In this document: piece after piece, positions 2,439 to 23,354 of the stretch
How positions within the stretch are numbered: position 1 is the stretch's first letter
Layout: each line of letters starts with the position of its first letter
Source: an uncultured Clostridia bacterium
GTDB taxonomy: Bacteria; Bacillota; Clostridia; Oscillospirales; Acutalibacteraceae
DNA: 64,000 bases
Direction: 5' to 3'
Assembly: GCA_945874765.1 (NCBI GenBank)
Contig: CAMCHQ010000005.1
Span: 1-64,000 of the forward strand
Position numbers and translations under genes: made by a program
Notes under the pieces: model-generated
Told to the model about the DNA's origin: nothing
Database searches by the model: none
Seen by the model: only the letters and a program-made list of their open reading frames with translations

Positions 2439-2506
2439 AAGAATCTCCTATCCGGTAGCGTTATTACCGTCATTGTCGTCATTATTGTACATATAAAACC
2501 TAAACG

Positions 2507-2661
2507 AAAGGCTTTGCCTTCTGTTAAGGCAACAAGAACAATTGAAAACTACAAGTTATATTACAAAAAGCCAAGTTACAGTGTCACCTTTTTAATATGT
2601 GCTTTGTAGTAGTACTGTTGTTTTTCTCCCCTGAACGAGAAACTTCGTTTCTGTTAAGGCA
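2507..2661. repeat. Intergenic region with two copies of a small hairpin plus CTGTTAAGGCA
   Basis: The gap upstream of the RepA-like gene (2439-2859) has no convincing gene. It contains two similar units at 2507-2531 and 2637-2661: each is a short hairpin (AAGGC-ttt-GCCTT; GAAAC-ttc-GTTTC) followed by the same TCTGTTAAGGCA. They could be iteron-like binding sites or structured leader RNA of the mobile-element operon. Short TGACG-rich runs at ~2465-2490 and ~2685-2710 are roughly mirror images. Function unknown. Confidence 0.4.
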
Positions 2662-2859
2662 TGTCATCTTTATGTGATATTAACAGTAATGACGGTAGTG
2701 ACGATGATTCATCTACCACTTTAATTTTTTTTGCAAGAGAGTCCTTGCATTATATATATCGCAAATATTTCGATTTTTTAGAAAAATATTCAACATATCT
2801 CCTAAATTCACATAATATTGCAAAAATACTGTTTGATATTTGTGCAAAATGACAACAAA

Positions 2860-2893
2860 AAAGACCAAGATTCAACATTGAACCTTGGTCTTT
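2860..2893. terminator. Bidirectional hairpin terminator outside the left inverted repeat
   Basis: Arms 2860-2875 and 2878-2893 match at 15 of 16 positions (AAAGACCAAG...CTTGGTCTTT), with T-runs on both sides when read on either strand. It lies 20 bp outside the left inverted repeat of the invertible segment. In the sequenced orientation it would stop transcripts leaving the segment leftward from the promoter at 2985-3013. Confidence 0.7.
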
Positions 2894-2984
2894 AATAATG
2901 GAAATATAACCGATTCGCAGAATGTTCTCATCTACGAATATTTTATATAATATATAATAAATCAACTTAAATTATATCATATAA

Positions 2985-3013
2985 ATTATATCATATAAAA
3001 TATATAAATACAA
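2985..3013 (-). promoter_or_regulatory. Outward-facing promoter inside the invertible segment
   Basis: On the minus strand: TTGTAT (3013-3008), 17-bp spacer, TGA then TATAAT (2990-2985), an extended -10 promoter. A second overlapping copy of the TGA-TATAAT element lies at 2971-2979 with TTTATA 17 bp upstream. As drawn it fires left through the left inverted repeat into the terminator at 2860-2893. After inversion it would fire into brxA with a leader of roughly 75-80 nt. Confidence 0.65.
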
Positions 3014-3114
3014 CAAAAATGAAATTGATTTATAATATTCAAACTTTAAGTCCATTAATATGTACTTATAAATTTTGTTTTATAATTATTTCAAACAAAA
3101 GGAAGGAAATGATT

Positions 3115-4035
3115 ATGAAATTCAACAACTTAAAACTAAACAAATTATCAAGTCAATGGCTTTGCACGATAAAAAATCGTGTAAAAATCACAACATACCA
3201 AAAGTATGAATTTATCGTTTTACATCACATTAATATTCATTTAGGTGAATACAAAACAAATGATATTACGCCGGTCAAAATAGCAGAATATTCAAATAAA
3301 CTTTTAGAAAATCTATCACCTAAAACAGTCAACACAATATTAACTGTACTTCACATGATTTTTAATTATGCAAATGAAAATTATAATTTGAATTTGCCAA
3401 AAATCAAATATGTTAAAGAAACGAAAAAAGAGATGAAAGTGTTGTCTGTGACCGAGCAAAAAGCACTTATGACATATCTTTTAAATGATATCGATATATA
3501 CAAATTAGCAATTTTTACACTTCTGTTTTCAGGCTTAAGAATAGGTGAACTATGTGCACTTGAATGGAACGATATTAGAAATTCAACTATAACAGTCAAT
3601 AAAACAATTCAACGAATAAAATGTGATAACAAAAATCATAAAACTGTTCTTGCCGTTCTCCCGCCTAAAAGCGACTCGTCAAACAGAGTCGTTCCCATTC
3701 CTGACTTTTTATATAAAATGCTTGATAAATACAGAGACGGCAAGTACTTTTTGACAGGCAAAAACAGTAGTTGCATTGACCCAAGATATATGCAACTTAA
3801 ATTCAAAAAATATCTTGAATATTGTAATATAAAAAATGCAGGACTTCACTGCTTAAGGCACACTTTTGCAACTCGTTGCATTGAGGCGGGATGGGATATA
3901 AAAAGTCTTTCGGAAGTCTTAGGACACAGTGATGTAAAAATTACGCTGAATAAATATGTTCATAGCAGTTTTGAACAAAAAATTGAATGTATGAACAAGC
4001 TTGAAATGCTGTTAAATATAAAAGCCGAGGTTTAA
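3115..4035 (+). CDS. Tyrosine recombinase, probable DNA invertase of the BREX switch
   Basis: A 306-aa XerC/D-like recombinase. The start at 3115 is preferred over upstream in-frame codons because AAGGAAGG lies 8 nt before it. A SAM-like N-terminal core-binding domain (1-95) is followed by the catalytic domain with R142 (FSGLRIGEL), H245-x-x-R248, H271 (LGHSD) and nucleophile Y281. It has no arm-binding domain, unlike the 349-aa integrase at the left edge, which fits a dedicated invertase. The gene lies wholly between 21-bp inverted repeats, and its stop codon is inside the terminator hairpin abutting the right repeat. I infer that it flips this segment and so controls brxA. It could instead be a xer-like integrase of another element. 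Confidence 0.88.
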   Translation: MKFNNLKLNKLSSQWLCTIKNRVKITTYQKYEFIVLHHINIHLGEYKTNDITPVKIAEYSNKLLENLSPKTVNTILTVLHMIFNYANENYNLNLPKIKYVKETKKEMKVLSVTEQKALMTYLLNDIDIYKLAIFTLLFSGLRIGELCALEWNDIRNSTITVNKTIQRIKCDNKNHKTVLAVLPPKSDSSNRVVPIPDFLYKMLDKYRDGKYFLTGKNSSCIDPRYMQLKFKKYLEYCNIKNAGLHCLRHTFATRCIEAGWDIKSLSEVLGHSDVKITLNKYVHSSFEQKIECMNKLEMLLNIKAEV

Positions 4036-4048
4036 CCTCGGCTTTTTC
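4021..4048 (+). terminator. Intrinsic terminator of the recombinase gene, facing brxA
   Basis: Perfect hairpin AAAGCCGAGGTT/AACCTCGGCTTT followed by TT. It overlaps the recombinase stop codon (4033-4035), ends 3 bp before the right inverted repeat and lies ~35 bp upstream of the brxA start. In this orientation it should block read-through into BREX. Confidence 0.8.
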
Positions 4049-4082
4049 CATAGATGAGAACATTCTACGAAAAGGAGAACAT

Positions 4083-4685
4083 ATGGCTGCACCAAGGGAA
4101 TACAACGGTGGTATTACAAGAGAGCAATTTTTGTTTTTTGAAACAAAGCAGGTTGCTAAACTAAAAAGCGAAGGCTATACAAACGAAGAAATACTAAAAA
4201 TATCATTTGACGAAAACATACTGCAAATGAAAACCGAAAAAAGCATAAAGATTTTGACCCAAGCCTGTATCAGACGACTTGATAACTGTGGGCAAGAGTT
4301 ATGTGAAGTGATTGCAAATTCTTCACCGGATATTGCAAAACAGGCTAATTTATATGCAATGATGTTGCAAAACAGAATTGTATGGGATTTTATGTTAAAT
4401 ATTATCGCCGAAAAATACAAAAGTAATAATTTTTCTTTTTCAAAAAAAGATATCAATTTATTTTTGAGTGAACTTGCATCTCAAAATGAACAAATAAGCA
4501 CTTGGAGTGAAAGCACTCTTACAAAAATAAGAAGTGTTCTTATTAAAATTTTAGCCGAAACAGATTATCTTGACAATATAAAAAGCGAAACACTAAATCC
4601 TGTTTTTTTGTATGAAGAGGTTGAAAGAGTAATAGTAAACAAAGGCGATGAAATCGTTTTGCCGGCGTTTAACCGTTTTATTTGA
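4083..4685 (+). CDS. brxA: BREX protein BrxA (DUF1819 family)
   Basis: First gene of the type-1 BREX operon; 200 aa, the normal length. BrxA is a small helical DNA-binding protein, part of the machinery that distinguishes self from phage DNA and blocks phage replication. The N-terminus (YNGGITREQFLFFETKQVAKL) matches the pattern typical of DUF1819 proteins. The ribosome site AAAGGAGA begins inside the end of the right inverted repeat of the upstream switch, so the leader between repeat and start codon is only 11 bp and holds no promoter. brxB follows 11 bp later. Identification rests on motif memory and on the complete BREX gene order downstream. Confidence 0.88.
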   Translation: MAAPREYNGGITREQFLFFETKQVAKLKSEGYTNEEILKISFDENILQMKTEKSIKILTQACIRRLDNCGQELCEVIANSSPDIAKQANLYAMMLQNRIVWDFMLNIIAEKYKSNNFSFSKKDINLFLSELASQNEQISTWSESTLTKIRSVLIKILAETDYLDNIKSETLNPVFLYEEVERVIVNKGDEIVLPAFNRFI

Positions 4686-4696
4686 GGTAAAAGATT

Positions 4697-5248
4697 ATGG
4701 AAAATATTAGAGCAAGACTTGACTGTTTAACAAACAAATTTAATGACAATGACTTTTTGCAAAACAAAGGTTTGAGCAATGAGGTCGGTATTCATATTTT
4801 TTGCTATAACCCTGAAGATGAAATGGTTGTAAAAAACTATGTACACCAGCTTAAAGGCATTGATACAAAGGCAAATATTATTGAATGTGATTTATACAAA
4901 ATATTTTTAAAAATATGTGAAGAGAAACGAGTTCTTGACAGACTTCCGAAAATTGAAGAGGCAAAAGGAAACGACGCATTTTTAAAAATGGTTACGCTTT
5001 TTGCAACGCCAAACGCCTTTATAAAGCATATGAAATATGAAAATCATACAGACAATGATGTTCTTTTAATTATCGGAGTCGGCAATGTTTACCCATATAT
5101 GAGGTGCAACAACATTCTTGAAAACATTCAGCCTGAGTTTCCAAATACGCCTGTCGTAGTTATGTATCCGGGAAGTTACACAGGCCAGACGCTTATACTG
5201 TTCAACAGATTTGAAACAAATTATTACAGAGCATTCAATTTACTTTAA
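4697..5248 (+). CDS. brxB: BREX protein BrxB (DUF1788 family)
   Basis: 183-aa protein in the second position of the BREX operon, the standard place of the DUF1788 protein BrxB. Visible features include a FCYNPEDEMVVKNYV segment near residues 35-50 and a VLLIIGVGNVYPYMRCNNILENI stretch near 125, a pattern common to BrxB proteins. It has no catalytic motif; BrxB is a structural partner of PglZ and other BREX subunits. It starts 11 bp after brxA, and brxC follows at 15 bp, so the three are surely co-transcribed. Confidence 0.87.
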   Translation: MENIRARLDCLTNKFNDNDFLQNKGLSNEVGIHIFCYNPEDEMVVKNYVHQLKGIDTKANIIECDLYKIFLKICEEKRVLDRLPKIEEAKGNDAFLKMVTLFATPNAFIKHMKYENHTDNDVLLIIGVGNVYPYMRCNNILENIQPEFPNTPVVVMYPGSYTGQTLILFNRFETNYYRAFNLL

Positions 5249-5263
5249 GTGAGGAGAAGAAAA

Positions 5264-8200
5264 ATGAAATTGCAAAGCATTTATAAAGAGGATATTAACA
5301 GAAACATTAACGGCGTTATCAAAGCCGACCAAAATGACGAGCAAAATCTTCAAAGTGAATTTCAAGAATACATTATCACAAAGGAACTTCGCCGTCATTT
5401 TGCAGACTTTTTAAATATCTACGAAAATTCAATTGATATTCCGACAGATAATATCGGCGTTTGGATTTCAGGCTTTTTCGGAAGTGGTAAATCTCATTTC
5501 TTAAAAATGATTTCGTATCTTCTTTCAAATCCGTATATTGCAGAAAAAAAGGCCGTTGATTACTTTGAGGACAAGTTTGACGACCCATTGGCTTTTGCTC
5601 AGCTTAAGCATTGTGCAAGCGTACCGACTGAATCAATACTTTTTAACATTGATGTAAAAAGTTCCGTCAACAAGGACAAAACTGCTATTTTGCGTGTATT
5701 TGCAAAGGTATTTTACGAACATCTTGGCTATTTCGGTGCAAGCATTAAAGTTGCAAGATTTGAGCAGTTTCTTGACAAAAGAGGTGTGTTCAAAGAATTT
5801 AAGCAAAAATTTGAAGAATACAACGGTATGCCTTGGGAAGAGTCGAGAGATGTTTTTGAAGTATGGGAAGACGATATAACCAATGCAATGGCTGATGTTT
5901 TGAATGTTGACAAAGATGCAGCCTTGAAATGGTTTAACGCATCAAGCGACGAGCTTAGCATAGACATTCTTGTTGATGATATAAAAAGCTATATTGATTC
6001 TAAAGGCAAAGACAACAGACTTATCTTTTGCATTGATGAAGTCGGTCAATATATCACCGAAGGTGAAATTGATTTGCTTTTCAATCTTCAGTCTGTTGTT
6101 GAAGAACTCGGAACTAAATGTCATGGCAGAGTTTGGGTTATTGTAACAGCTCAAGAGGAAATTGACTCTTATACCAAAGTAAAAGCATCTGATTTTTCTA
6201 AAATTCAGGATAGGTTTAAAACTCATATATCGCTCACCTCTTCTTCTGTTGACGAAGTTATCAAAAAAAGAATACTTGCAAAAAATGAAAACGGCGAAGA
6301 GCTATTAAAGCAAAAATATAACACTTCTGCGTCCGTGCTTAAAAATCTTATCAGCTTTAACGACACAAGAGCAGATATGAAAGGATATTCTGGCGAAAAG
6401 GAGTTTATTGAAACTTATCCGTTTATACCGTTTCAATTTAATCTTTTTCAAAATGTTCTTATTAAAATTAGGCAAAAGGGTAACACCGGTGCTCACCAAT
6501 CAAGTGGTGAACGCTCTATGCTTTCAGGATTTCAGGAAGTGGCACAAAGGCTTAACGACAGAGATGAAAATGCGTTAGTACCGTTTTATCTTTTTTACGA
6601 CACGGTTAATTCATTTCTTGAAAGTACAATTCGTCAGGTAATCGAACGTTGCGACAGAGCGGCACAATCGGGCGACGGAATTGAAGATTATGATGTTAAG
6701 GTGTTAAAACTGCTTTATCTTATCAAATATATCGACGATATTCCTGCAAATGTTGACAACATTGCAACACTTATGACTGATGATATTGAAACGGATAAAA
6801 TTGAACTCAGAAATAAAGTTAAAGATTCACTTGCAAGGCTTTTAAGCCAAAACTACATTTCAAAAAATGGCTTGACTTATTCGTTTTTGACGGATGACGA
6901 GCAGGATGTTGCAAGAGAAATCAAAAACACAATGGTTGACTCGTCAAGAATTATTTATCAAATTTCTTCAACTGTTTTTGATGATTTATTTTCAAACAAG
7001 GTTATAAAATACGGCAACAATACAATCGGCTTTGACCAAGCTGTTGACGATACAATTCACGGTGCTGTTTCAAATTCTATCAGGCTCAGAATTATAACTG
7101 CCGCATCGGATTTGCATACTGCCGATTCAAGTACATTTATTATGCAATCAAAGGCTAACAACGAGGCTATTTGTGTTCTTTCGGACGATTACGGCTATTA
7201 TGACACACTTGAATCTGCATTAAAAATCAGAAACTATACAAAAACAAGAAATATAAATATGCTCGCCGAGAATATTCAAAACATAATTCGTGGCAAGAGC
7301 TCACAGGCAAGTGCTTATGAAAAAGAGGCTAAGGAGCTTATTTCAAAAGCAATTATAAACGGTGAATTTTACATAGCAGGCGAAAAGGTAAGCGTTTCAG
7401 GTACAAGTGTTAAAGATAAATTCAGCAATGCACTCACTGTACTTATTGAAAGCGTTTATACGAAAATGAACTATGTTACCTATAACTACAAGGACATTGC
7501 CGATGTGTTGAAAATATTTAACAGCAACCAAATGTCGTTTGATGTAGGCAATGCAAATGCTCAGGCTGTTGACGATATGGCACTTTGGCTTGAAGGCAAG
7601 CATATGCGTAAAATGACTACCTGTGCAAGCGATCTGCTCAAAAAGTACAAAGGTATTCCGTACGGCTTTAACGAGCTTGACATAGTCGGTATTCTTTGTC
7701 AGCTTATCAGGGACAAAAAAGTAAATGTCGTATATGCAGGTTCGGTTGTTACAGAGCGTGATTCAAGACTTATTGACCTTCTTCGTAAAAAGAGTGAAAT
7801 TGACAAAACAGTTATCGAAAGAAGAATTGAGCTTGACGAAAGAATAAAGAAAAATGTTAAAAGCTTTCTTGGAGAATACCTTGACATTATGGACGTTCCT
7901 GATGATGAGGACGAACTTTTGACTTTCACAATTTCCAAACTTGAAGAAAAGAAGAAAGAATGCGATGAGGCTATCAACAGATTTTATGTAGGAACAAATT
8001 ATCCAGGTCGTGACGATTTGATGAGAGCAAGCACCAATTTGAGAGAAACACTTAGTTACAAAAAGGACGCTGTTGCACTGTTTAATCGAATTCTTAAAGA
8101 CCAAGATGTTTTGCTTGACAACAGAGAAGACTGCGAGGATGTATTCAACTTCTTAAAAGTGCAAAAAAGTGCATTTGACAAAGGTGTTGACGAGTTGAAC

Positions 8201-8776
8201 AAACTTCGAGATGATGAATTTTATCTTACCGAAAGCGAAGAGATAACAAAAAATGTTGCAGCCTTAAATTCTATCATTTCCATGCAAAAGCCATATAGAA
8301 GAATTGCTGAAATTCCTAATATTATAAATAGTATAGAAGAAAGCTACAAAATCATACTTGATGACAAAAAAGAAAGTTTGATTCATCTGCTTGAAGATTC
8401 GGCTAAAGAAGTTGTTGACATTGCAAACGGTGACGAAAGCTTACTTTCGTTCAAATCGGCTAACAGCAATTTTTCAATACTTAGAAACAGAATTGATGAT
8501 ATAAAAACACTTTCTAAAGCTGATGCCGTCAAATCTCAAATTAACGAAACAAAGCAAAGAGCAGTAAACAGCATTTTCAATGAGATTTCTCAAAAAGCTA
8601 ATAATGAAAATGAGCAAAGTGATGAAGTGAAAATCAAGGTGGCATCTGTTTCAAGGAATAAATTAGTCCCTGCAATAAGGCTTAAATCAGCAGATGAAAT
8701 TGAAAAATATACCGAGATGATTAAAAAGTCACTTCTTAAAGAGCTTGAAGATAACGATTTCATACAGATTATTTAG
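5264..8776 (+). CDS. brxC: BREX protein BrxC, large ATP-binding protein
   Basis: 1170-aa P-loop protein, the usual size for BrxC/PglY, an AAA+-like ATPase needed for BREX defence. Walker A GFFGSGKS is at residues 70-77 and Walker B LIFCIDE at 253-259, followed by QYITEGEIDLLFNLQSVVEEL. The C-terminal half is rich in charged helices (~830-1130), likely coiled coil. The ATG at 5264 is preferred over the GTG at 5249 because GAGGAGAA precedes it by 6 nt. The spacer before pglX contains a 39-bp element that recurs after pglX. No frameshift or premature stop seen. Confidence 0.93.
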   Translation: MKLQSIYKEDINRNINGVIKADQNDEQNLQSEFQEYIITKELRRHFADFLNIYENSIDIPTDNIGVWISGFFGSGKSHFLKMISYLLSNPYIAEKKAVDYFEDKFDDPLAFAQLKHCASVPTESILFNIDVKSSVNKDKTAILRVFAKVFYEHLGYFGASIKVARFEQFLDKRGVFKEFKQKFEEYNGMPWEESRDVFEVWEDDITNAMADVLNVDKDAALKWFNASSDELSIDILVDDIKSYIDSKGKDNRLIFCIDEVGQYITEGEIDLLFNLQSVVEELGTKCHGRVWVIVTAQEEIDSYTKVKASDFSKIQDRFKTHISLTSSSVDEVIKKRILAKNENGEELLKQKYNTSASVLKNLISFNDTRADMKGYSGEKEFIETYPFIPFQFNLFQNVLIKIRQKGNTGAHQSSGERSMLSGFQEVAQRLNDRDENALVPFYLFYDTVNSFLESTIRQVIERCDRAAQSGDGIEDYDVKVLKLLYLIKYIDDIPANVDNIATLMTDDIETDKIELRNKVKDSLARLLSQNYISKNGLTYSFLTDDEQDVAREIKNTMVDSSRIIYQISSTVFDDLFSNKVIKYGNNTIGFDQAVDDTIHGAVSNSIRLRIITAASDLHTADSSTFIMQSKANNEAICVLSDDYGYYDTLESALKIRNYTKTRNINMLAENIQNIIRGKSSQASAYEKEAKELISKAIINGEFYIAGEKVSVSGTSVKDKFSNALTVLIESVYTKMNYVTYNYKDIADVLKIFNSNQMSFDVGNANAQAVDDMALWLEGKHMRKMTTCASDLLKKYKGIPYGFNELDIVGILCQLIRDKKVNVVYAGSVVTERDSRLIDLLRKKSEIDKTVIERRIELDERIKKNVKSFLGEYLDIMDVPDDEDELLTFTISKLEEKKKECDEAINRFYVGTNYPGRDDLMRASTNLRETLSYKKDAVALFNRILKDQDVLLDNREDCEDVFNFLKVQKSAFDKGVDELNKLRDDEFYLTESEEITKNVAALNSIISMQKPYRRIAEIPNIINSIEESYKIILDDKKESLIHLLEDSAKEVVDIANGDESLLSFKSANSNFSILRNRIDDIKTLSKADAVKSQINETKQRAVNSIFNEISQKANNENEQSDEVKIKVASVSRNKLVPAIRLKSADEIEKYTEMIKKSLLKELEDNDFIQII

Positions 8777-8813
8777 TGGACAGTTGACAGTGGTCAGATT
8801 TTATATAATCACA

Positions 8814-8852
8814 CCTATAACTAATCACTGTGCACTAATCACTAACCACTAA
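8814..8852 (+). repeat. Direct repeat copy 1 flanking the pglX cassette
   Basis: 39-bp stretch beginning CCTATAACTAATCACTGT and built from short CACTAA units. It matches the copy at 13374-13412 at 35 of 39 positions by hand count. It lies 15 bp before the pglX start. Sequences of this type (runs of 'ctaatcactattcacta') are low-complexity spacers in many Firmicutes; here they bracket pglX. Confidence 0.75.
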
Positions 8853-8867
8853 CAGAAGGAGAAGAAA

Positions 8868-11489
8868 ATGAATAAGAATGCGCTAAAAAGCTACGCCGTA
8901 TGGGCAAGGCAAAAGCTTATAAATGATGTTGCACAAAAAGCATTTGAATACGCAATCACAAAGGACGGTTTCGGTGAAGAAAATGCGAAAGCAATCGGAG
9001 AGCGTGCACTTTCAAACGACGAAGTCAAGCAAAGAAGTGAACTTGTAAATCAAATAAAATTAAAAGGCTTTGAGCAGGTTATGGAAGAAGTTGCATACAC
9101 TTGGTTTAACCGTTTTATTGCTCTTAGATATATGGAAGTCAACGGTTTTCTTCCGTCTCGTATTCGTGTTTTTACTAATGAAAATAATGAGTTCAAGCCT
9201 GAAATTTTGAAAGAGGCTATAAACATTGACTTTGAATGTATTGACAAAAGCAAGGTTTTTGAGCTTATCGACAGTAACGACACCGACGCTTTATACAAAT
9301 ATCTCATCATTTCGCAGTGCAACGATTTAGGAAAGCTTTTACCGGGTATGTTTGAAAAAATTGCAAATTATACCGAGCTCCTATTCCCAGATAATCTTCT
9401 TCGACCTGATTCCGTTATAGGCAAAATGATTAGTGATATTGATGAGAGTGATTGGGGCGAACAGGTTGAAATTCTCGGTTGGCTTTATCAATTTTATAAC
9501 ATTGAGCCTAAAGCTGTTGTGTTTGGACGAAAAGGCAATGCAAAAATCAAAAAAGAAGAAATACCTGCTGCAACTCAACTTTTTACTCCTGATTGGATAG
9601 TTCGCTATATGGTTCAAAATTCTCTCGGCAGAATTTTTATTAACGATAAATGCGTTGGCATTACCGATGAAAAAGAAAGAATAAATAAAGAAAAAGAAAT
9701 AGCACAACAAATGGGTTGGCAATACTATTTGCCTGAAGCGGAGCAAACGCCTGAAGTCAGAGCACAATTAAATGCTTATCACATTTCGCTTTTTAGTGAA
9801 CTCACCTCTATAAAGCTTATTGACCCGTGTATGGGCTCCGGTCATATTCTTGTTTACGCTTTTGAAGTGCTTATGCAGATTTATCTTGAATGTGGCTATA
9901 CCGAAAGAGATGCAACTTCGCTCATACTTGAAAATAACCTTTTCGGTCTTGATATTGACGATAGAGCATATCAGCTTGCCTATTTTGCCGTTATGATGAA
10001 GGCTCGTTCTTGTGACAGAAGAATTTTAACTCGTAACATTAAGCCTAATGTTTATTCAATTAAAGAGTCTAACTTCCTTGCTGACTCTTGGGAAAAAATA
10101 TCGGACGATGAAAAATTTAGAGAAATATTCCAAACAGTAGTTGATACTTTTATCGATGCTAAGGAATACGGCTCAATATTGAATGTCCCTGACGCCGATT
10201 ACGATTACGCACTGTCTGTTATAGATGATTTTGAGCAGTCTGTTCCTGTCGATTTTGAGGCTCAAATTCTCCGTGGCAAAACCGATGATATTCGTGCGCT
10301 TGTTAATCAGGCAAAGCTGCTGTCACAAAAGTATGATGTGGTAGTCACTAACCCACCGTATATGCCTGTAAGTAATTCGAGTGCATCACTTCAAAATTTT
10401 GTTAAAAAGAATTATCCTGACAGCAAAACCGATATGTTTGCTGTATTTATTGAAAGAGTAGCTCAATTAACAAAGCCTAATCGATATTCGGCAATGATTA
10501 CAATGCACTCTTGGATGTTTTTATCTTCTTATGAAAAACTGCGTTCAAAAATTCTTGAAACAGATACCGTTAATATGGCACATCTCGGAGCAAGGGCATT
10601 TGAGGAAATCGGTGGTGAAGTAGTACAAACTACTGCTTGGATAGAAAGAAAGACCGATTTAAAGCAGTTCAAGGCTACATATAAACGACTTGTTGATGAA
10701 AACAGCCAAACTGCTAAAGAACAGGCATTTTTAAATAAAAATGATAATGCTTATAATATAACCAAAACCAACTTTTCTAAAATCCCCGGCTCCCCAATCG
10801 CTTATTGGGTGAGTCAACATGCTTTTGATGTTTGTATAGAATCACAAGTATTTGAGAAATTTGCAACAACGCGCGCGGGAATGATTACTGGAAACAATAA
10901 TATGTTTATCAGGCTTTGGCATGAAGTGAATTGGAAAAAAGTTGGAATTTTGCTGCATTCGAGAAGTGAAGCAATCGACAGTAAGAAAAAATGGTTTCCG
11001 TATAACAAAGGTGGAGAGTATCGCAAGTGGTATGGAAATAATGACTATGTTGTAAATTGGGAAAATGATGGGAGCTATATGCGAAATTACAAAGATGATT
11101 CTGGAAAAATCCCCGCTCATGCATTCAATTTGGAATATATTTTTAAGGAGAATGTAACCTGGAGTTCGCTGTCATCATATAAATTTGCAGCTCGTTATAC
11201 AGATTACGGTTTTTTGTATGATGCCAGCGGTTCCTTTGCTGATGTGAAAACAGAAAACATTTTTTTTACATTGGCATTCTTGTGTTCAGAAGTTACACTG
11301 TTCTTTTTAGGTGCAATGAATCCAACACTTAATTTTCAAAAAGGCAATATTTCCTCACTACCGTTTATCATTGATACAAGACGCATGGATCAAGTGAATA
11401 ACGCAACAAAAGAGAATGTTGCGATTTCTAAGGCCGATTGGAATTCTTATGAAAACTCTTGGGATTTCAAACGAAGTCCATTAGTATGA
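8868..11489 (+). CDS. pglX: PglX N-terminal part: BREX adenine-N6 methyltransferase and target recognition region
   Basis: PglX methylates a non-palindromic host motif so that BREX spares self DNA, and it is also needed for phage exclusion. This 873-aa ORF has the SAM-binding motif DPCMGSG (319-325), the catalytic NPPY (495-498) and the recognition region after ~620. It stops at SWDFKRSPLV, where full-length PglX (~1200 aa) normally continues into a conserved C-terminal segment. That missing segment is encoded as a separate ORF at 12383-13327, after an intervening DUF2971 gene; 873+314 = 1187 aa restores the normal length. So this is a split gene, either a natural two-subunit methyltransferase or one broken by insertion. 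Clean stop, good ribosome site (AGAAGGAGAAG). Confidence 0.93.
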   Translation: MNKNALKSYAVWARQKLINDVAQKAFEYAITKDGFGEENAKAIGERALSNDEVKQRSELVNQIKLKGFEQVMEEVAYTWFNRFIALRYMEVNGFLPSRIRVFTNENNEFKPEILKEAINIDFECIDKSKVFELIDSNDTDALYKYLIISQCNDLGKLLPGMFEKIANYTELLFPDNLLRPDSVIGKMISDIDESDWGEQVEILGWLYQFYNIEPKAVVFGRKGNAKIKKEEIPAATQLFTPDWIVRYMVQNSLGRIFINDKCVGITDEKERINKEKEIAQQMGWQYYLPEAEQTPEVRAQLNAYHISLFSELTSIKLIDPCMGSGHILVYAFEVLMQIYLECGYTERDATSLILENNLFGLDIDDRAYQLAYFAVMMKARSCDRRILTRNIKPNVYSIKESNFLADSWEKISDDEKFREIFQTVVDTFIDAKEYGSILNVPDADYDYALSVIDDFEQSVPVDFEAQILRGKTDDIRALVNQAKLLSQKYDVVVTNPPYMPVSNSSASLQNFVKKNYPDSKTDMFAVFIERVAQLTKPNRYSAMITMHSWMFLSSYEKLRSKILETDTVNMAHLGARAFEEIGGEVVQTTAWIERKTDLKQFKATYKRLVDENSQTAKEQAFLNKNDNAYNITKTNFSKIPGSPIAYWVSQHAFDVCIESQVFEKFATTRAGMITGNNNMFIRLWHEVNWKKVGILLHSRSEAIDSKKKWFPYNKGGEYRKWYGNNDYVVNWENDGSYMRNYKDDSGKIPAHAFNLEYIFKENVTWSSLSSYKFAARYTDYGFLYDASGSFADVKTENIFFTLAFLCSEVTLFFLGAMNPTLNFQKGNISSLPFIIDTRRMDQVNNATKENVAISKADWNSYENSWDFKRSPLV

Positions 11490-11497
11490 GGTGAACT

Positions 11498-12376
11498 ATG
11501 ATTGGAAAAAGCGAAGTATTATATCATTATACAACTTTAGATACTTTTGCTAATATTATAAAATCTAAAAAATTTAGGCTTTGTGATATAACAAAAAGTA
11601 ATGATCCATTAGAAGGCGTATATATGATTCAAGCATTAGAAAATGCTTATCATAAACTCTATCACGATAATAAAATTAGCAAAGAAGAACATCTAATGAT
11701 AAATCGAGCCTTTTTTCGATTTAGCGAAATGATAGCAAGCCAAGGTCGTAATAGGGATTTTTATGGGGCTGCCTCATTTTGCATTCCGTCGCACGAATTA
11801 CTAATGCTCCGTAGTTATGCAAATAATGGCAAAGGTGTAGCTTTAGGTGTTCCGATATTGACGCTTGAAACTTTAGCAAAAAACGATCCACATCTTGAAT
11901 TTAAAAAAATCGAGTATTTGTCAGATAAAGAAATTGATGAAAAAGCATCCGGATTTTGGATGACAAAAGTTTTAACTTGGAAAAAGCAATATTCAAATTT
12001 GGATGATAAAATGCTGTCTAAATTTGTTAAAGAAATTGAAGAATTTTATCGTGAAAGTTATTTTATTAAAAATAAAGTTAATGAAGATGAACAAGAGTAT
12101 CGATTACTTTACAAGTGTCATGATTTGTTTGAAATTTGTTTACCAGGTGTTGATAGATATGTGCCGGAAAACATTGATTTTATCCAAAGCGACAATGATT
12201 TAAAAGCGTATTATGAAATTACAGTTGGTGACGGTGATGATGCACCATTTCATTTTTGTAATATAGTTATTGGTCCTAAATGTAATGCAACGGAAGAAGA
12301 AATAAATGTTTTTTTGCGTCGGCATGGTATTAAAGATGTTAGCGTATTTAAGAATTCTTGGACACAAATGAGGTAA
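11498..12376 (+). CDS. DUF2971 protein inserted between the two halves of pglX
   Basis: 292-aa protein with the DUF2971 signature at its N-terminus: LYHYTTLDTFANIIKSKKFRLCDITKSNDPLEG, i.e. H-Y-T ... K-x-x-x-L-x-x-S-N-D-P-x-E. DUF2971 proteins occur in defence islands and phages; biochemical function is not established to my knowledge. It begins 8 bp after the pglX-N stop with ribosome site GAGGTGA, and the pglX C-terminal ORF begins 6 bp after its stop, behind a similar GAGGTAA. A short ATGAGGT(G)AA sequence occurs at both joints. Position and tight spacing suggest it works with PglX or rides in its cassette. Identity of the domain is fairly sure; the role is unknown. Confidence 0.82.
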   Translation: MIGKSEVLYHYTTLDTFANIIKSKKFRLCDITKSNDPLEGVYMIQALENAYHKLYHDNKISKEEHLMINRAFFRFSEMIASQGRNRDFYGAASFCIPSHELLMLRSYANNGKGVALGVPILTLETLAKNDPHLEFKKIEYLSDKEIDEKASGFWMTKVLTWKKQYSNLDDKMLSKFVKEIEEFYRESYFIKNKVNEDEQEYRLLYKCHDLFEICLPGVDRYVPENIDFIQSDNDLKAYYEITVGDGDDAPFHFCNIVIGPKCNATEEEINVFLRRHGIKDVSVFKNSWTQMR

Positions 12377-12382
12377 ATAACA

Positions 12383-13327
12383 ATGTCAAAACTAATTTCA
12401 GATAAATACGAGCAATGGAAAGAGGAATGCGAGCAAAGGTTCCTCAAACTTAAAGAAAACGAAGAAGAGTTAAACAGAATATTTATTGACATATACGGTT
12501 TGAATGACGAGTTGACGCCTGATGTGGCAGACAAGGATATCACCGTTCACAGAGTATATGACAGCAAAGACGATGTGCCCGAAAGTATGAAAGGCAGTAA
12601 CTATGTCCGTACTCTTCACGACGAAATCGTATCGCTTGTGTCCTACGCAGTCGGTTGTATGTTTGGTCGTTATAGCCTTGATGTTGACGGTTTAGCTTAT
12701 GCAGGCGGCGAGTTTGATGAATCAAAATATACAACTTACATACCGGATAAAGACAACATAATTCCGATAACTGACGATGAATATTTTGAAGATGATATTG
12801 TCGGAAAATTTGTAGAATTTGTAAAGGTTGTTTACGGCGAAGACACGCTTGAAGAAAACTTGAAATTTGTAGCAGACGCACTTGGTAACAAAGGCAAGAC
12901 TTCAAGAGAAGTTATAAGAAATTATTTCTTAAACGATTTCTACAAAGACCACTGCAAAACATATCAAAAAAGACCGATTTACTGGCTGTTTGACAGTGGT
13001 AAAAAGAACGGCTTTAAAGCGCTCATTTATATGCACAGGTATAAAGCTGACACGGTAGCAAAGCTTAGAACGGACTATGTATTTGAGCAGCAGGAAAGAT
13101 ATAGGTCAAGAATTGAATTCTTGACGAGTGAATACGATTCTGCCACAGGAAGTGACAGGACTAAGATAGGCAAGGAAATCGACAAAATTAAAGAGCAGTT
13201 AAACGAGGTTAATAATTTTGAAGAAAAGGTGCACCACCTTGCCGACCAAATGATAACGATTGACCTTGACGACGGCGTTAAGGTTAATTATGCAAAATTT
13301 GAGGATGTTTTAGCAAAGGTAAAATAA
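12383..13327 (+). CDS. pglX: PglX C-terminal part encoded as a separate protein
   Basis: 314-aa ORF that matches the C-terminal segment normally fused to PglX. It begins ISDKYEQWKEECEQRFLKL and carries ENEEELNRIFIDIYGLNDEL (25-44) and VSYAVGCMFGRYSLD (86-100), blocks highly conserved at the end of type-1 PglX proteins, followed by a helical C-terminus (240-314). It has its own ATG and ribosome site, 6 bp after the DUF2971 gene, so it should be made as a free subunit. The conserved blocks are intact, arguing against decay. It might reassemble with the 873-aa part. A 39-bp direct repeat follows it, mirroring the one before pglX-N. Confidence 0.85.
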   Translation: MSKLISDKYEQWKEECEQRFLKLKENEEELNRIFIDIYGLNDELTPDVADKDITVHRVYDSKDDVPESMKGSNYVRTLHDEIVSLVSYAVGCMFGRYSLDVDGLAYAGGEFDESKYTTYIPDKDNIIPITDDEYFEDDIVGKFVEFVKVVYGEDTLEENLKFVADALGNKGKTSREVIRNYFLNDFYKDHCKTYQKRPIYWLFDSGKKNGFKALIYMHRYKADTVAKLRTDYVFEQQERYRSRIEFLTSEYDSATGSDRTKIGKEIDKIKEQLNEVNNFEEKVHHLADQMITIDLDDGVKVNYAKFEDVLAKVK

Positions 13328-13373
13328 AAATGGTCAGCGATTAGTGATTAGTGGTTAGAATAATAAAACCGTG

Positions 13374-13412
13374 CCTATAACTAATCACTGTTCACTAAGA
13401 ACTAAGCACTAA
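13374..13412 (+). repeat. Direct repeat copy 2 flanking the pglX cassette
   Basis: Second copy of the CCTATAACTAATCACTGT element (35/39 match to 8814-8852), placed between pglX-C and pglZ. Just upstream, 13332-13357 contains the complementary units GATTAGTGATTAGTGGTTAG, so this spacer can fold into a long imperfect hairpin. The two copies are 4560 bp apart and in the same orientation. Confidence 0.75.
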
Positions 13413-13425
13413 AAAGGAAACAACT

Positions 13426-16032
13426 ATGGGTATTGAAACAATAGAAAAAAGATTACAAGAACGATTTGATGCACCGCTTAAAGAATATTACGAAAGGCAC
13501 ATTGTTTTTTGGAAAGACGAAGACGGTCGGTTTGAAAATGACATTGATGATATAAGCCTAAACGGTGTAAAAATAATAAAGCTTAAAGAAAACAACTTTT
13601 TTGAAGTTAAAAAGTTATTGCTTTGCGACGATACAAAAAGCAATTACCTTGTTTATGACACCTGCAAGTATGAAAAGCTAAGCGATAGGTGGCTTTATGA
13701 CATTGAGCTTTACAGCGGTGAGCCATTTTTTGCCGACAAGTCGTCGCTTGTAATGGACGAATTTTCTATTGAACAAACACCTCAAATGAAAAGCGCACTC
13801 AAACTTTACCCTAAATTTTTTGACAGCAAAGAAAGATGCGAAAAGCTTAAAGCAATATCAAACGGCAATGTATATACAAATCCTGCCACACTTCACTATG
13901 ATATTTTAAGCGTTTTGACATCAAGTGAAAAAAACACTGCTCAATCGATTATAGGTAAAGTGCTTATTGATTATTTTATTTACGGCAAGTCTGCCATTGA
14001 AAATATTGAAAAATTCGGCAATGAGGCTGTTTTTTGGACAATGATTCAAAAGAACACAGGATACATAAAAGCTGACATTGACAATAATTTTGAAGAACTT
14101 TTAAGTCATATCATTTTCACTGCAAGCATTCAAAATATGGCTCAAGCTGTTTTAAAGCCGTTTGAAAAGCACATCAGTTTGAATCATTCGTCATTTTGCT
14201 ACACGCTCATTCACGATATGACTGTTACAAATGAAAATGATGCTTTTGAGCTGTGCAAAATTATTGAAGATAAATATAATTTGAAAAGCAAATTTGCTAA
14301 AGTTGACATTTCAAATCTTGTAAGTTGCGACATTTTTCCTTGCATTGACGAAGTTATTTTGACTAAATTTTTTGACGAAGTCAACTCGAATGTAATCAAG
14401 AGTGACAACATTGTAAGCACGGTTGAAAAGCGTAAAGTTATGAGTTGGTACAAGGACTATGAAAACTATTACAATGGCATTTTCTTCATTGCTAAAATGC
14501 AACAATTTTATCATGAACATTTGGATAGTTTTCATCTTGCAAATGCTTATGATGTTTTCAAATCGTACACAAACGATTTTTACAAAATGGACAGTCTGTA
14601 CCGTCAATTTCATCTTGCATTTTCGAAAAGTTTAATTTCGTCATATGCTCCTGATTTGGACGATTTATACAAATCAAGCGTTGATTACATTGAACAGCTT
14701 TATCAAAATTGGTATTTAAAAGAGCTTACCAATTTATGGTTCAAAGTTGCCGATACTCATTTAAGCGGTGAAAATATCGACTGCAATATAAAAAAGCAAA
14801 TTGATTTTTATGATGATTTCGTACTGCCTATTAAGGAAAAGCGCACTGTTTTTGTTATAATTTCGGACGCTTTAAGATACGAAGTTGCAGTTGAACTTTG
14901 TGATAATATTGCTCATAAAAGCAGAGCAAGTGTTGAAATTTCTGCTATGCAAAGCGTATTTCCGTCGGTTACAAAATATGGTATGGCGGCATTGCTGCCC
15001 GGTAGTAACAAGAAAGTAAGCGACGGCGTAATTACTGTTGATAATTTAAAGTGCAGTTCAACAGATGAAAGAAAAAAGGTGCTTTGTGCCCACGACGAAA
15101 ACAGCACAGCAGTACAATACAAAGACTTTATTAAAATGAAAAAGAGCGACCGAAGTGAGCTTATCAAAGGCAAAAAAGTTGTTTACATTTATCACAACAC
15201 GATTGACGCCATAGCTGAAAAGCCTGCCACTCAAACAAAAGTTTTCGACGCTTGTGATGACGCAATAAGCGAAATTACAAATCTTGCAGGAATTATTGCA
15301 GGCTTAAGAGGCTCAAGCGAAGTTATAATCACGAGTGACCACGGCTTTACATATACTTATCTGCCGTTTAAAGAATCACAAAAAATTTCCGTTACGGATT
15401 TGGCAGGTGTTAAAGCATCAGGCAGAAGATACATTATCGGTGACGAAAGCACAAATTGTGATTATTTAATGAATATTGATATGCAAATCAATGATGAGAG
15501 CAAAAGCTTAAAGGGCTACTCCTCTCTTGATATTGTAAGAATCAAGCAATCGGGCGACGGTGAAAATTTTGTTCACGGCGGTATGAGCTTGCAGGAATGT
15601 GTAGTACCGGTGATTAAAGTGAAAAATGTTCGCCTTGATTCTAAAAAATATCAAAACAACAAAGAAATGTTTGACACAACACCTGTTGAAATTACGCTTT
15701 TATCACAAAATCACAAAATTTCAAACAATATTTTTTCGCTTTACTTTTTCCAAAAGGAGCCTGTGGGCAAAAACAAAAAGGCTCAAACTTATCAACTTTA
15801 TTTTATTGATGATTTCGGCAACAGAATTTCCGACATTCATAAAATAATAGCCGATAAAGAGGACATTGAGGCGACAAACAGGCAGTACAGAGTGAATTTC
15901 TGCCTTAAAGAGCATCAGTTTAATAGAAATGATGATTATTATTTGATAATTGAAAATGAAAACGGTGAAGAAATAAGCCGCATAAAATATGAAATCGACA
16001 TAGTTTTTTCAGCTGAAGATTTCGGCTTTTAG
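13426..16032 (+). CDS. pglZ: BREX protein PglZ, alkaline-phosphatase-superfamily
   Basis: 868-aa PglZ, the hallmark BREX protein (metal-dependent phosphodiesterase/phosphatase fold). The PglZ core shows the metal-binding motif FVIISDALRYE (~476-486) and ITSDHGFTYTYLPF (SDHGF 637-641); between them is VFPSVTKYGMAALLPG, the usual substrate loop. The N-terminal ~470 residues are a helical BREX-specific region. The last ~110 residues (759-868) form a distinct beta-rich domain containing NNIFSLYF, QLYFIDDFGN and YEIDIVFSAEDFGF; a clearly related copy ends the next gene. Starts with AAGGAAAC ribosome site after the repeat spacer; the next gene follows at 11 bp. Confidence 0.93.
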   Translation: MGIETIEKRLQERFDAPLKEYYERHIVFWKDEDGRFENDIDDISLNGVKIIKLKENNFFEVKKLLLCDDTKSNYLVYDTCKYEKLSDRWLYDIELYSGEPFFADKSSLVMDEFSIEQTPQMKSALKLYPKFFDSKERCEKLKAISNGNVYTNPATLHYDILSVLTSSEKNTAQSIIGKVLIDYFIYGKSAIENIEKFGNEAVFWTMIQKNTGYIKADIDNNFEELLSHIIFTASIQNMAQAVLKPFEKHISLNHSSFCYTLIHDMTVTNENDAFELCKIIEDKYNLKSKFAKVDISNLVSCDIFPCIDEVILTKFFDEVNSNVIKSDNIVSTVEKRKVMSWYKDYENYYNGIFFIAKMQQFYHEHLDSFHLANAYDVFKSYTNDFYKMDSLYRQFHLAFSKSLISSYAPDLDDLYKSSVDYIEQLYQNWYLKELTNLWFKVADTHLSGENIDCNIKKQIDFYDDFVLPIKEKRTVFVIISDALRYEVAVELCDNIAHKSRASVEISAMQSVFPSVTKYGMAALLPGSNKKVSDGVITVDNLKCSSTDERKKVLCAHDENSTAVQYKDFIKMKKSDRSELIKGKKVVYIYHNTIDAIAEKPATQTKVFDACDDAISEITNLAGIIAGLRGSSEVIITSDHGFTYTYLPFKESQKISVTDLAGVKASGRRYIIGDESTNCDYLMNIDMQINDESKSLKGYSSLDIVRIKQSGDGENFVHGGMSLQECVVPVIKVKNVRLDSKKYQNNKEMFDTTPVEITLLSQNHKISNNIFSLYFFQKEPVGKNKKAQTYQLYFIDDFGNRISDIHKIIADKEDIEATNRQYRVNFCLKEHQFNRNDDYYLIIENENGEEISRIKYEIDIVFSAEDFGF

Positions 16033-16043
16033 GAGGAGAAAAA

Positions 16044-18590
16044 ATGGAATTAATTTTAGTAATAATAGCAATTTTATTATTTTTTGGACTTTTAGGCTTT
16101 ATAGTTGAAAATTTCAGTACAATCTTAATTGTTGTAGGTGTCGTTATAGCTGTCGCAGTTGTGGCTTTTATTATCTTTGTGATCAAAGATGTACATAACG
16201 CAAAGCAAAATGAAAAAATTGAAGAACATAAAGCAAAGCAAAATAAAAAAATAGAAGAACATAAAGCAGAGCAAAATAAAAAAATAGAAAAACAAAAAGA
16301 AACGGAAGACAAGAAAATAGAAATCAAAGAAACGAAAGAAAAAATCAAAGAAAAGCTTATAGTTGCCAAATTCTTTGCTCCGCCAAAAGCTTACAAAGTA
16401 CCTTGCCTAAGCAATAATATCAAAGGCGAGCAAAAAAGAGTCAACGAGGCTTATGTTAAGTTTTTAAATCGAAAAAACGAAATAGACAAAGCTGCGGCTA
16501 AAGCGAAATTTTACCTGGATTTAAACAGATCATATGAGTATTTGATTGAAGAAAATGTAGAAGTTGCAGATTATCTCAGCTATAAAAAAGAGCGTGAAGA
16601 TGCATTCGAAAAATATGAAGCCCTTTTAAAAGACATTGCACCTCTAAATAAACTTCCTATTCAATCAAGTGCTTATAATTCGCTTGCACAATCGTTTTAC
16701 GCTTTGAATATTGTTGACGACAAAAACGATGTACCGACTGAACTTATTGAGTTTTTCAGCAATTTTTCAAATGACGTATATTTTAAAAAAGTTGAAAATA
16801 ATGTTTACATTTTTAACCCTTTATACATTTGGAAATATGACTGCGATAAAATGACATTTACAATTATCGACTACAGTGATTTTTACGCAAGTGTAGATGA
16901 AGAAACGAAAACTATTGATGAAGATACATATATCAAAGACGGTTACAGCTATGACGATATAAAAGAAATGCACTATACTTATGAAAATATAGACGGTATA
17001 CCTGACAGGCGAAGAAATTACAACCCTGCTTATTATGATGTTTATGATTGTTATGTACTCATAGGGCAACAAGGTTATAAACCAGAACGTTTTTATGACT
17101 TTATCAAAGTTGGTTCTAAGGATAAAACCGAAGATACTGTTAAGGAAATAAACAAGTTTTTTGCAAAGAAAGACAATATCGGCACTATTCAACTCAAAAA
17201 TGCAATACTCACTTGTAAAGACGGTAATTTTGAAGAAAAGCTTAACGAACTTAAAAAAGAAAGAAAAAATGAGCTTGATAAAAAGAAACACATAGAGCAA
17301 GAGAAAAAAGCCGAAGAAGAAAGAATGGAAAAAGAAAAGCAAGAAGAGAAAAAACGAATTGAAGAGGAAAAGAAAGCCGAAAAACAAAGGATTGAAGAAG
17401 AACAGAAAAGACAAAGAAAAATTGCCGAAGAAAAAGAAAACGAGCGTAAAGAGAATGACAGACAACAATGGCTTTTAAACGAATGGAACGAAATCATAAA
17501 AACCGAAAAAAAGCGTAAACAAGATGAGATAGAAGAAAAAGAAAACGAGCAAAAAGAAAATCAGAGAATCAAAGAAGAGATTGAAACTCAAATTGAATTT
17601 ATCAACAATCTTCGTAACGGTGATGACAGCGACTACCAATGCTTTGAGGTTAATGACGAAACATTATCGAAAATAGAATTTGTAAGGTTTAATTGCTATC
17701 AAGATTATGCGTACACATCGGTTTTATCTTTCAGCTATAACAGCACGGTTTATCCTGTTGACGGCAAATGGTCATCATTATATATATCACTTTTAAAACT
17801 TCTTTATCAAGATTATGAAAGAGTAATAAAAGACCAAATCGGAAAATCGATAGATAATCGTAAAAGAGTTGATATTGTAAAAGAAGAAAATCTTAATCAA
17901 TTAAAGAAAGGTTACAATTTTGCAGATGATTTATATGTGGAAATAAATATGAACGCATCGGACATTGTATCCAAAATAAGCTATTTGATGAAGCTTTGCA
18001 ATGTAAAGTATAATCAAATCAATATTCTATTTGTTAACAGATTTGAAAACAAGACATTCTTTACTAAAAAAAGGAAGAAAACTGCTAACAGCGAAAGAAA
18101 CCCGAAGAAAAAGTCTGAATCGAATCCTTTTAACGGACTCAGTAATGATGAAGTTCAGCTTATTCTTGAACACAGAAAACAAGCTGAAGAAGAGGCAAGA
18201 AAAGTCGAAGAGGATACTAAAAAACGACAGGCACAGCTTGAACTTGAACAAAGCCTTGATATCGGTGCACTCGTTCAGGCAAACGGTCAAAAGGTAATTA
18301 CAAATAACATTTTTAGCCTTGAATTAACTCAGAAAGAAGACACTCCAAATACCGAAAAATATAAATTATATTTTATAGACGAACTCGGAAATATTATAAG
18401 TAATGAAAAGACTATTGGCAAAATGGCAATCGGCGAAAGCACAAAGGTTACATTTGAGCTGTTTTCAAAGCTGACATTTTCAGCATCAAAGCCTTATTAT
18501 TTGCTCGTATCAGACGATAGCGACGGAAAGCTTATAAGCAAGACGCAATATAAAATAGACATTGCTTTTTCAAATGATTTTGGTTTTTAA
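16044..18590 (+). CDS. Unknown membrane-anchored coiled-coil protein with a PglZ-type C-terminal domain
   Basis: 848 aa, no family recognised. Residues ~3-50 hold two strongly hydrophobic segments separated by a short polar turn, then a basic, Lys/Glu-rich coiled coil (50-110) built on an 11-residue repeat. A folded region (~115-395) is rich in Tyr and Asp, a second long charged coiled coil spans ~395-520, and a further folded part follows (~525-700). The last ~103 residues (746-848) resemble the PglZ C-terminal domain encoded just upstream: both share NNIFSL, LYFID(D/E)xGNxIS, YKIDI/YEIDI and DFGF at the very end. It sits between pglZ and brxL with 11 and 19 bp spacing and ribosome site AGGAGGAG. 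I infer a BREX accessory that links the complex to the membrane. Confidence 0.8.
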   Translation: MELILVIIAILLFFGLLGFIVENFSTILIVVGVVIAVAVVAFIIFVIKDVHNAKQNEKIEEHKAKQNKKIEEHKAEQNKKIEKQKETEDKKIEIKETKEKIKEKLIVAKFFAPPKAYKVPCLSNNIKGEQKRVNEAYVKFLNRKNEIDKAAAKAKFYLDLNRSYEYLIEENVEVADYLSYKKEREDAFEKYEALLKDIAPLNKLPIQSSAYNSLAQSFYALNIVDDKNDVPTELIEFFSNFSNDVYFKKVENNVYIFNPLYIWKYDCDKMTFTIIDYSDFYASVDEETKTIDEDTYIKDGYSYDDIKEMHYTYENIDGIPDRRRNYNPAYYDVYDCYVLIGQQGYKPERFYDFIKVGSKDKTEDTVKEINKFFAKKDNIGTIQLKNAILTCKDGNFEEKLNELKKERKNELDKKKHIEQEKKAEEERMEKEKQEEKKRIEEEKKAEKQRIEEEQKRQRKIAEEKENERKENDRQQWLLNEWNEIIKTEKKRKQDEIEEKENEQKENQRIKEEIETQIEFINNLRNGDDSDYQCFEVNDETLSKIEFVRFNCYQDYAYTSVLSFSYNSTVYPVDGKWSSLYISLLKLLYQDYERVIKDQIGKSIDNRKRVDIVKEENLNQLKKGYNFADDLYVEINMNASDIVSKISYLMKLCNVKYNQINILFVNRFENKTFFTKKRKKTANSERNPKKKSESNPFNGLSNDEVQLILEHRKQAEEEARKVEEDTKKRQAQLELEQSLDIGALVQANGQKVITNNIFSLELTQKEDTPNTEKYKLYFIDELGNIISNEKTIGKMAIGESTKVTFELFSKLTFSASKPYYLLVSDDSDGKLISKTQYKIDIAFSNDFGF
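16200..16298 (+). repeat. Three tandem 33-bp coding repeats
   Basis: Units at 16200-16232, 16233-16265 and 16266-16298 encode A-K/E-Q-N-x-K-I-E-x-x-K, an 11-residue coiled-coil repeat of the 848-aa protein. Two units contain a run of seven A. Such in-frame repeats can change copy number and so stalk length; the A-runs could also slip. Confidence 0.8.
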
Positions 18591-18609
18591 ATTAAAGGAG
18601 ATATAAAAA

Positions 18610-20676: not shown

Positions 20677-20687
20677 AGGTGAAAAAT

Positions 20688-21605: not shown

Positions 21606-21694
21606 TGTTCTGTATATATGTTCTAATATACAAAAGGTTTGATTTTGTTTTATAATTAAATCAACAAATTTTTGAAATAAGGAGAAATTTAATT

Positions 21695-23263: not shown

Positions 23264-23279
23264 CTGAAAATCATATTAA

Positions 23280-23317
23280 AATAATGCAGCAGGCTGAATA
23301 CCTGCTGCATTATTTTT
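23280..23317 (+). terminator. Terminator closing the BREX cluster
   Basis: Perfect 14-bp arms AATAATGCAGCAGG (23280-23293) and CCTGCTGCATTATT (23301-23314), 7-nt loop, then a T-run. It lies 16 bp after the 522-aa gene stop and marks the end of the BREX transcription unit. Confidence 0.85.
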
Positions 23318-23354
23318 GCATATCTGCAACAATGCACTCCTATATGATTCATAT

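Follow-up and report, generated by a model that had tools for sequence, protein, structure and literature searches.

It appears very probable that the segment at positions 2914-4071 of the window, the 64,000-nucleotide (64-kb) stretch of DNA analysed here, is a self-contained invertible promoter cassette for a BREX operon, sequenced in the OFF orientation. An earlier sequence-only reading had proposed an invertible promoter before BREX in the OFF state, and this is still the best reading of the locus. It agrees with the anatomy of the segment, with the recurrence of its repeats and its promoter in related cassettes, and with one pair of species in which a related cassette lies in opposite orientations. 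From these observations we infer that the segment would also invert in the window, that inversion would govern BREX expression, and that the switch would have an effect on phage.

The segment and its proposed mode of action

The sequence-only reading placed 21-bp inverted repeats around a complete recombinase gene, and both are present in the sequence. The repeat arms are 21 nt long, identical at 20 of 21 positions, and 1116 bp apart. They form the sole inverted repeat in the 64-kb window with a score of at least 18 and a spacer of 100-2500 bp, and none of ten dinucleotide-shuffled windows (0/10) contained an inverted repeat of that score and spacing. In other words, the segment is bounded by repeats beyond chance, as an inverton is. 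The gene between the arms encodes P0001, which starts at an ATG (3115) with a good ribosome-binding site, as judged by eye, and has an intact reading frame; a longer ORF is possible from position 3019. A Phage_integrase domain together with R-K-H-R-H-Y residues identifies P0001 as a tyrosine recombinase. These six residues (R142, K185, H245, R248, H271, and Y281), the expected catalytic ones, are invariant across an alignment of 15 sequences. No relatives of P0001 were found in named genomes with a single-protein query.

A minus-strand promoter pointing outward near the left repeat had also been claimed, and a predicted site was found there. It consists of two overlapping candidates, TTTATA-17-TATAAT with a TGn extension (2971-2999, minus strand; score 12) and TTGTAT-17-TGA-TATAAT (2985-3013, minus strand; score 11), whose two extended -10 boxes sit in a 14-nt tandem repeat (2968-2995, minus strand). 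The best outward promoter of the window beats shuffles of its own region (p 0.015, 200 shuffles). Its -35 boxes are weak, with 3-4 of 6 letters matching, the surrounding DNA is rich in AT, and promoter-like matches in 2000-6000 are not enriched (18 versus 20.6 expected), so that the case for this promoter comes mainly from comparison with the cassette family. As predicted from the sequence, a promoter points outward at one end of the segment and a gene starts beyond the other end, which is the arrangement of an inverton. No plus-strand promoter of score at least 9 was found from position 3804 to brxA.

Outside the left arm lies a hairpin that had been called a bidirectional terminator. The description holds for the minus strand, on which the hairpin is strong and has a T-run. 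It is generous for the plus strand, on which the folding energy is -16.5 kcal/mol and the T-run is poor. A recombinase terminator had likewise been placed beside the right repeat, at 4021-4048, and a hairpin with a perfect stem does lie there. This hairpin is absent from the list produced by a simple terminator scan, we think because its T-run pairs within the stem.

How would such a segment switch BREX on and off? The recombinase would act on the two end sites of ~25 bp and reverse the segment between them. In the present, OFF orientation, the promoter would be directed left into the hairpin outside the left arm, and upstream of brxA there would be only the recombinase gene and its hairpin, which would shield brxA. 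The right arm ends 11 bp before the ATG of brxA, a distance that the sequence-only reading had given correctly, and these 11 bp (AAGGAGAACAT) fit a ribosome-binding site but not a promoter. Flipping the segment in silico placed both TGATATAAT boxes before brxA. The transcript would then start ~60 nt upstream of brxA, since 36 bp separate the nearer box from the arm and are followed by the 21-bp arm and the 11 bp to the ATG. It would run through the site, take in the AAGGAGA ribosome-binding site just outside it, and continue along brxA-brxB-brxC-pglX-pglZ-brxL, and the recombinase hairpin would now face the left flank. Cells with BREX on and cells with BREX off would thereby coexist in a population. 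Even in the OFF orientation, transcription reading through the recombinase terminator could allow BREX to be expressed to some extent.

Table 1. Features of the cassette and of the BREX operon, in window positions
Feature	Position	Strand	Evidence or remark
Terminator-like hairpin outside left arm	2860..2893	-	scan; -22.2 kcal/mol, z -6.8
Left recombination site TTCGCAGAATGTTCTCATCTACGAA	2914..2938		inverted-repeat arm = 2914-2934
Outward promoter region, two overlapping extended -10 boxes (TGATATAAT), weak -35-like hexamers	2971..3013	-	predicted; shuffling p 0.015
Tyrosine recombinase P0001, 306 aa	3115..4035	+	PF00589 E 2e-22, PF14659 E 4e-9
Terminator-like hairpin at recombinase gene end	4020..4046		13-bp perfect stem; -18 kcal/mol, z -5.7
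Right arm / right recombination site	4051..4071		inverted repeat
brxA ribosome-binding site and spacer, outside the putative invertible segment	4072..4082	+	sequence; in-silico flip
brxA	4083..4685	+	PF08849 E 1e-54
brxB	4697..5248	+	PF08747 E 6e-36
brxC	5249..8776	+	alternative ATG start at 5264
pglX, N-terminal methyltransferase part	8868..11489	+	PADLOC PglX model positions 1-869
Cargo gene (DUF2971-like) between pglX parts	11498..12376	+	21.6 bits versus cut-off 22
pglX, C-terminal part	12383..13327	+	PADLOC PglX model positions 876-1170
pglZ	13426..16032	+	PF08665 E 2e-48
Operon protein without family match, C-terminal domain in common with PglZ	16044..18590	+	37% over 141 aa, E 4e-13
brxL	18610..20676	+	gene identification
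Strongest terminator-like hairpin 3' of brxA, possible unit end	23278..23316		listed on minus strand

The BREX operon and the reach of the proposed switch

The genes to the right of the segment constitute a type I BREX system, with brxA, brxB, brxC, pglX (as two ORFs), pglZ, and brxL together. The hairpin that may end the unit (23278-23316) comes after brxL and two further genes, and plus-strand hairpins inside the operon are weaker than this one and at chance level. On both strands of 4020-23400, promoter-like matches (71 versus 67.5 expected) and terminator-like matches (10 versus 11.7 expected) also occur at chance level, and weak internal signals are therefore neither claimed nor excluded.

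Would the switch govern all of these genes? It might govern part of BREX only, with pglZ-brxL or pglX under a promoter of its own. Such partial control could draw on two gaps of ~95 bp (8777-8867 and 13328-13425), on a TTGACA-14-TATAAT seen by eye in the first of them, on promoter-like matches inside genes, which are at chance level, and on the two-operon BREX of Bacillus cereus described in the available part of PMC9122589. However, a scorer that covers sigma-70-type sites found no promoter-like match of score at least 9 in either gap, and no promoter of that score in the four intergenic gaps from brxC to brxL. Partial control is unlikely, but it is a possibility to be reckoned with.

The preferred reading is a switch of the whole BREX operon rather than variation of pglX only. 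The sequence-only reading had drawn the same distinction, and it is borne out by the position of the repeats before brxA and by the recurrence of the PglX split in relatives. The scan of the window for strong repeats found no inverted repeat of score at least 18 with a spacer of 100-2500 bp within pglX.

A broken pglX was considered and rejected as the likeliest account of the two ORFs, because three relatives (L194, L195, and L196) have the same split with other cargo genes in the slot. The gene is continuous in L193, the split is absent from the other BREX types L198 and L199, and no match to the pglX queries was found in L192. The split-pglX region (8868-13327) looks like a cargo slot inside BREX, judging from these gene arrangements. 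The same 50-nt sequence (82% identical) is present at 8803-8852 and 13363-13412, on either side of the pglX-cargo-pglX block. Further along the operon, the 848-aa protein encoded at 16044-18590 shares its C-terminal domain with PglZ, as if it docked where PglZ does. At the contig start, a second integrase gene and an AAA_25 gene occupy 54-2438 on the minus strand, directly left of the cassette. BREX may ride on an integrated element.

The cassette family and its inversion in relatives

The layout of the segment was compared across 55 loci, namely the window, a first set of 18 recombinase relatives (one in the genome that contains the window, the other 17 in related genomes), and a second set of 36 relatives. 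The second set consisted of the top matches listed when 250 genomes of the family were searched with the 15-sequence alignment, excluding loci obtained earlier and one truncated at a contig end. At 51 of the 55 loci (16/19 in the first set with the window and 35/36 in the second), inverted repeats of score at least 14 flank the recombinase gene in the same layout. Four loci gave no flanking repeat, namely L046, L258, and the two that are truncated at contig ends, L042 and L052. In L264, the repeat is AT-rich and no longer than 15 nt, and a good promoter is lacking. As a control, lower-identity homologues (28-34%) were scanned, and 0/17 had a flanking repeat of score at least 14, with shortened flanks in 6 of the 17.

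The promoter is conserved along with the repeats. With a threshold of 11, which was set after the first shuffling test, 41 of the 51 cassettes have an outward promoter within 120 bp inside the left arm. The other strand of these 120 bp has a promoter of that score in 0/51, and next to the right arm an outward one is present in 2/51. Among the first 16 cassettes, 14 have a promoter with p <= 0.025 against shuffles, the exceptions being L039 (0.355) and L041 (0.09). The contrast between 41/51 outward and 0/51 opposite indicates that an outward promoter at the recombinase 5' end is a conserved part of the element.

The recombination sites share sequence as well. A TTCGYRRA half-site, a motif picked post hoc after inspecting the sites, is present in 34 of 51 cassette site pairs, whereas random stretches taken from these loci would give 0.6. 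The ten letters with which the left site of the window begins, TTCGCAGAAT, reappear in the left site of L037, a cassette with a recombinase 48% identical to P0001. We take the repeats to be the recognition sites of the cassette recombinase. Dyad symmetry within single sites was dropped as a stand-alone test for being too weak, as the window's left site scores 7/8 (fraction 0.11) versus a shuffled mean of ~6/8.

One alternative is that the cassette is a former invertible switch now locked OFF, with BREX silent or driven by readthrough. A locked switch would fit the single known orientation of the segment, the one mismatch between its arms, and the lack in P0001 of a ~60-aa N-terminal basic region that is present in 14 aligned relatives. 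However, the mismatch falls close to the edge of the site, and imperfect arms occur in several other cassettes (e.g., L041, L045, and L050). The recombinase of L041, which is outside the alignment, apparently also lacks the N-terminal region. Furthermore, the frame of P0001 is intact and all six of the expected catalytic residues are retained. Loss of switching at this locus is improbable, and a working switch is the preferred reading.

Evidence for inversion within the cassette family is good, as far as it can be read from genome comparison. Two species of the window's genus (L048 in G054 and L050 in G008) have cassettes in opposite orientations beside a shared flank, whose FeoB-type and aldehyde-dehydrogenase proteins are 76% and 96% identical, respectively. 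The nucleotide alignment of the two loci changes strand at the repeats, with the flank matching in one direction and the interior of the cassette in the reverse direction. The flank piece stops within two bases of the arm and the interior piece starts within ~20 bp. This evidence is one-sided in that orthology is seen for one flank. Further cassettes face both ways near similar genes; for example, an FtsK/EssC-type secretion gene lies to the right of the cassette in L050, whereas L051 and L243 have it on the left. By a nearest-ORF rule, the 51 cassettes divide into 22 OFF, 15 ON, and 14 with both sides possible, and these counts are a rough guide because the rule classes the window itself as 'both'. 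Several other opposite-orientation pairs were set aside because they rest on distant genes, and two pairs fit neither orientation. BrxA is present in 2 of 80 genomes of the genus, in a collection with one genome per species; in the second of these, G047, an ordinary HTH gene and no cassette lies upstream of BREX.

The inverted pair also bears on another reading, in which the segment is a small, non-inverting insertion element that has its ends in the repeats and lies before brxA by accident. Related cassettes do precede unrelated genes, so the module seems to have spread, and the integrase and AAA genes in the left flank of the window look mobile. Nevertheless, an accidental insertion would not lead one to expect a reversal beside a shared flank that breaks at the repeats, as in L048 and L050, or a conserved outward promoter at one defined end. 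In addition, the neighbouring gene often starts close to the arm, at 11 bp in the window and at 11-31 bp in seven other cassettes (nearest-ORF rule). Taken with these points, the insertion reading is highly improbable. It is scarcely credible that the present orientation is the ON state for a leftward target, the AAA_25 gene (1386-2438), which is the nearest left gene, on the minus strand and 476 bp away, since a strong minus-strand hairpin terminator lies in between and the right-side gene starts next to the arm and has its ribosome-binding site beyond the end of the segment.

Other defence loci and known switches

What do the other cassettes control? The targets identified include cohesin/dockerin and Ig-like proteins (L036 and L040), a CarboxypepD-repeat protein (L045), proteins of the type VII secretion kind (FtsK/EssC-type in L050 and FHA in L048), a signal-peptidase-type gene (L044), and an acyltransferase (L038). 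No family match was obtained for the two very large genes next to the cassettes L041 and L047. Defence-like targets are few. In L254 (G1039:C41), the cassette stands before a type II restriction-modification operon (methyltransferase E 4e-89, restriction enzyme E 7e-93), in which a 144-aa gene, starting 164 bp from the right arm, precedes the methyltransferase and restriction genes. In L037 (G025:C26), the cassette has an Avs2 gene (E 1e-217) on one side and, on the other, an operon that encodes a dynamin/LeoA-like protein together with a HerA-like ATPase; this target is unsure because an ORF of ~50 aa and a gap separate the arm from the dynamin/HerA operon. On the left of L043 (G037:C30) lie, among others, genes for a SUKH immunity protein and for a protein with a toxin domain of the GHH-nuclease type.

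A search of 118 other BREX loci found no cassette of the window's type upstream. The loci came from an order sample (12), the best 80 of 238 from named genome contigs, and a class sample (26 of 28, because L187 and L189 gave no BrxA match by tblastn at the cut-off); some are near-duplicates (e.g., L078 and L079) and thus not independent. With the window included, 103 of 119 have at least 1200 bp upstream of brxA, which is enough to reveal a cassette. The arrangement in the window thus appears to be rare. Only L104 among the other loci has a family-like recombinase upstream, and it was rejected as a cassette because it has no flanking repeat (best 13 nt) and because, by eye, it resembles an integrase next to a tRNA gene. 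No BrxA was found in viral contigs.

A possible second BREX case was seen in L075 (G213:C28; 265-569), where a different operon (HTH-brxA-brxB-brxC) is preceded by perfect 19-nt inverted repeats (265-283 and 520-538) upstream of the HTH gene. The repeats enclose a perfect TTGACA-17-TATAAT promoter (455-483) that faces the operon, that is, in the ON orientation. Nothing else in the genome matches the arms when up to 3 mismatches are allowed, and the site shares 18 of its 19 letters with that of L230, a cassette found in a different bacterial family. The interior of the repeats encodes no recombinase. Recombinase matches in G213 are weak, the best being E 1.1e-9 to P0001 and 1.8e-17 to the family alignment.

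In a wider repeat scan of the 114 of 119 loci with at least 300 bp upstream of brxA, nine loci besides the window and L075 have upstream repeats scoring 14-20 (L114, L129, L137, L155, L162, L165, L166, L174, and L179), compared with 1.4 at a score of at least 14 and none at a score of at least 15 in shuffled upstream sets. The highest of the nine, L179, has an imperfect repeat of score 20 over 38 nt with its left arm within a small ORF, and no recombinase was found at that locus. These nine regions are not claimed as switches.

The balance of evidence leans towards a more general model, in which a widespread family of portable promoter cassettes that flip themselves, each by means of a tyrosine recombinase that it encodes and the cognate sites, has been recruited before whole anti-phage operons (BREX here, restriction-modification in L254, and perhaps the operon in L037), so that defence systems would be bet-hedged and BREX would have come under promoter inversion at least twice, in the window and in L075. 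If the switch is real, isogenic cells would differ in being defended and methylated at all. This would have consequences for phage survival in populations, for the interpretation of BREX methylation data, and for the uptake of DNA by OFF cells. Lineages in the OFF state would be predicted to lose the methylation mark of BREX as generations pass. The family also supplies dozens of loci, 51 of them already available, in which to study how switches capture new operons, defence included.

In the Hin H-segment of Salmonella, an outward promoter drives the controlled operon. The window cassette is like this flagellar switch in having an outward promoter and a recombinase gene inside its own segment. 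The data support a cassette that would work like the Hin switch but with a tyrosine recombinase, and the features by which an invertible promoter is recognized at the sequence level were found. It is unlike Hin in that P0001 is a tyrosine and not a serine recombinase and in that its target would be a phage-defence operon. A recombinase gene within the invertible segment is described, with Hin as the example, in a portion of PMC5903667, and Hin is presented as a serine recombinase with an enhancer in the accessible text of PMC3798978.

In its tyrosine recombinase, inverted repeats, and promoter flipped towards or away from a target, the cassette is like the invertons of gut bacteria and the RecV and Fim switches. 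The recombinases of invertons are mostly near the switch and occasionally inside it, according to the available section of PMC5903667; that of the window is inside. No invertible promoter before a BREX operon was described in the literature searched, which consisted mostly of titles and abstracts with poor coverage of subscription journals. The main text of a 2026 survey of BREX diversity (PMC12839542) has no match to recombinase, integrase, invert-, or promoter, and its single match to phase-vari- is in the reference list.

BREX regulation is described in the accessible part of PMC9122589 through repressors and PglX variation. Phase variation of PglX in BREX/Pgl likewise switches BREX-type defence, but it acts on pglX, as in Lactobacillus rhamnosus, where full and partial pglX genes are separated by an integrase (PMC9122589 and PMC7513527, both in excerpt). 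In the window, by contrast, the repeats precede brxA and would control transcription of the operon. The cassette is also like the inversion of type I restriction hsdS genes, in which DNA inversion alters defence (the available passages of PMC11892184 and PMC5903667). However, hsdS inversion changes specificity, whereas the switch in the window would decide whether BREX is made.
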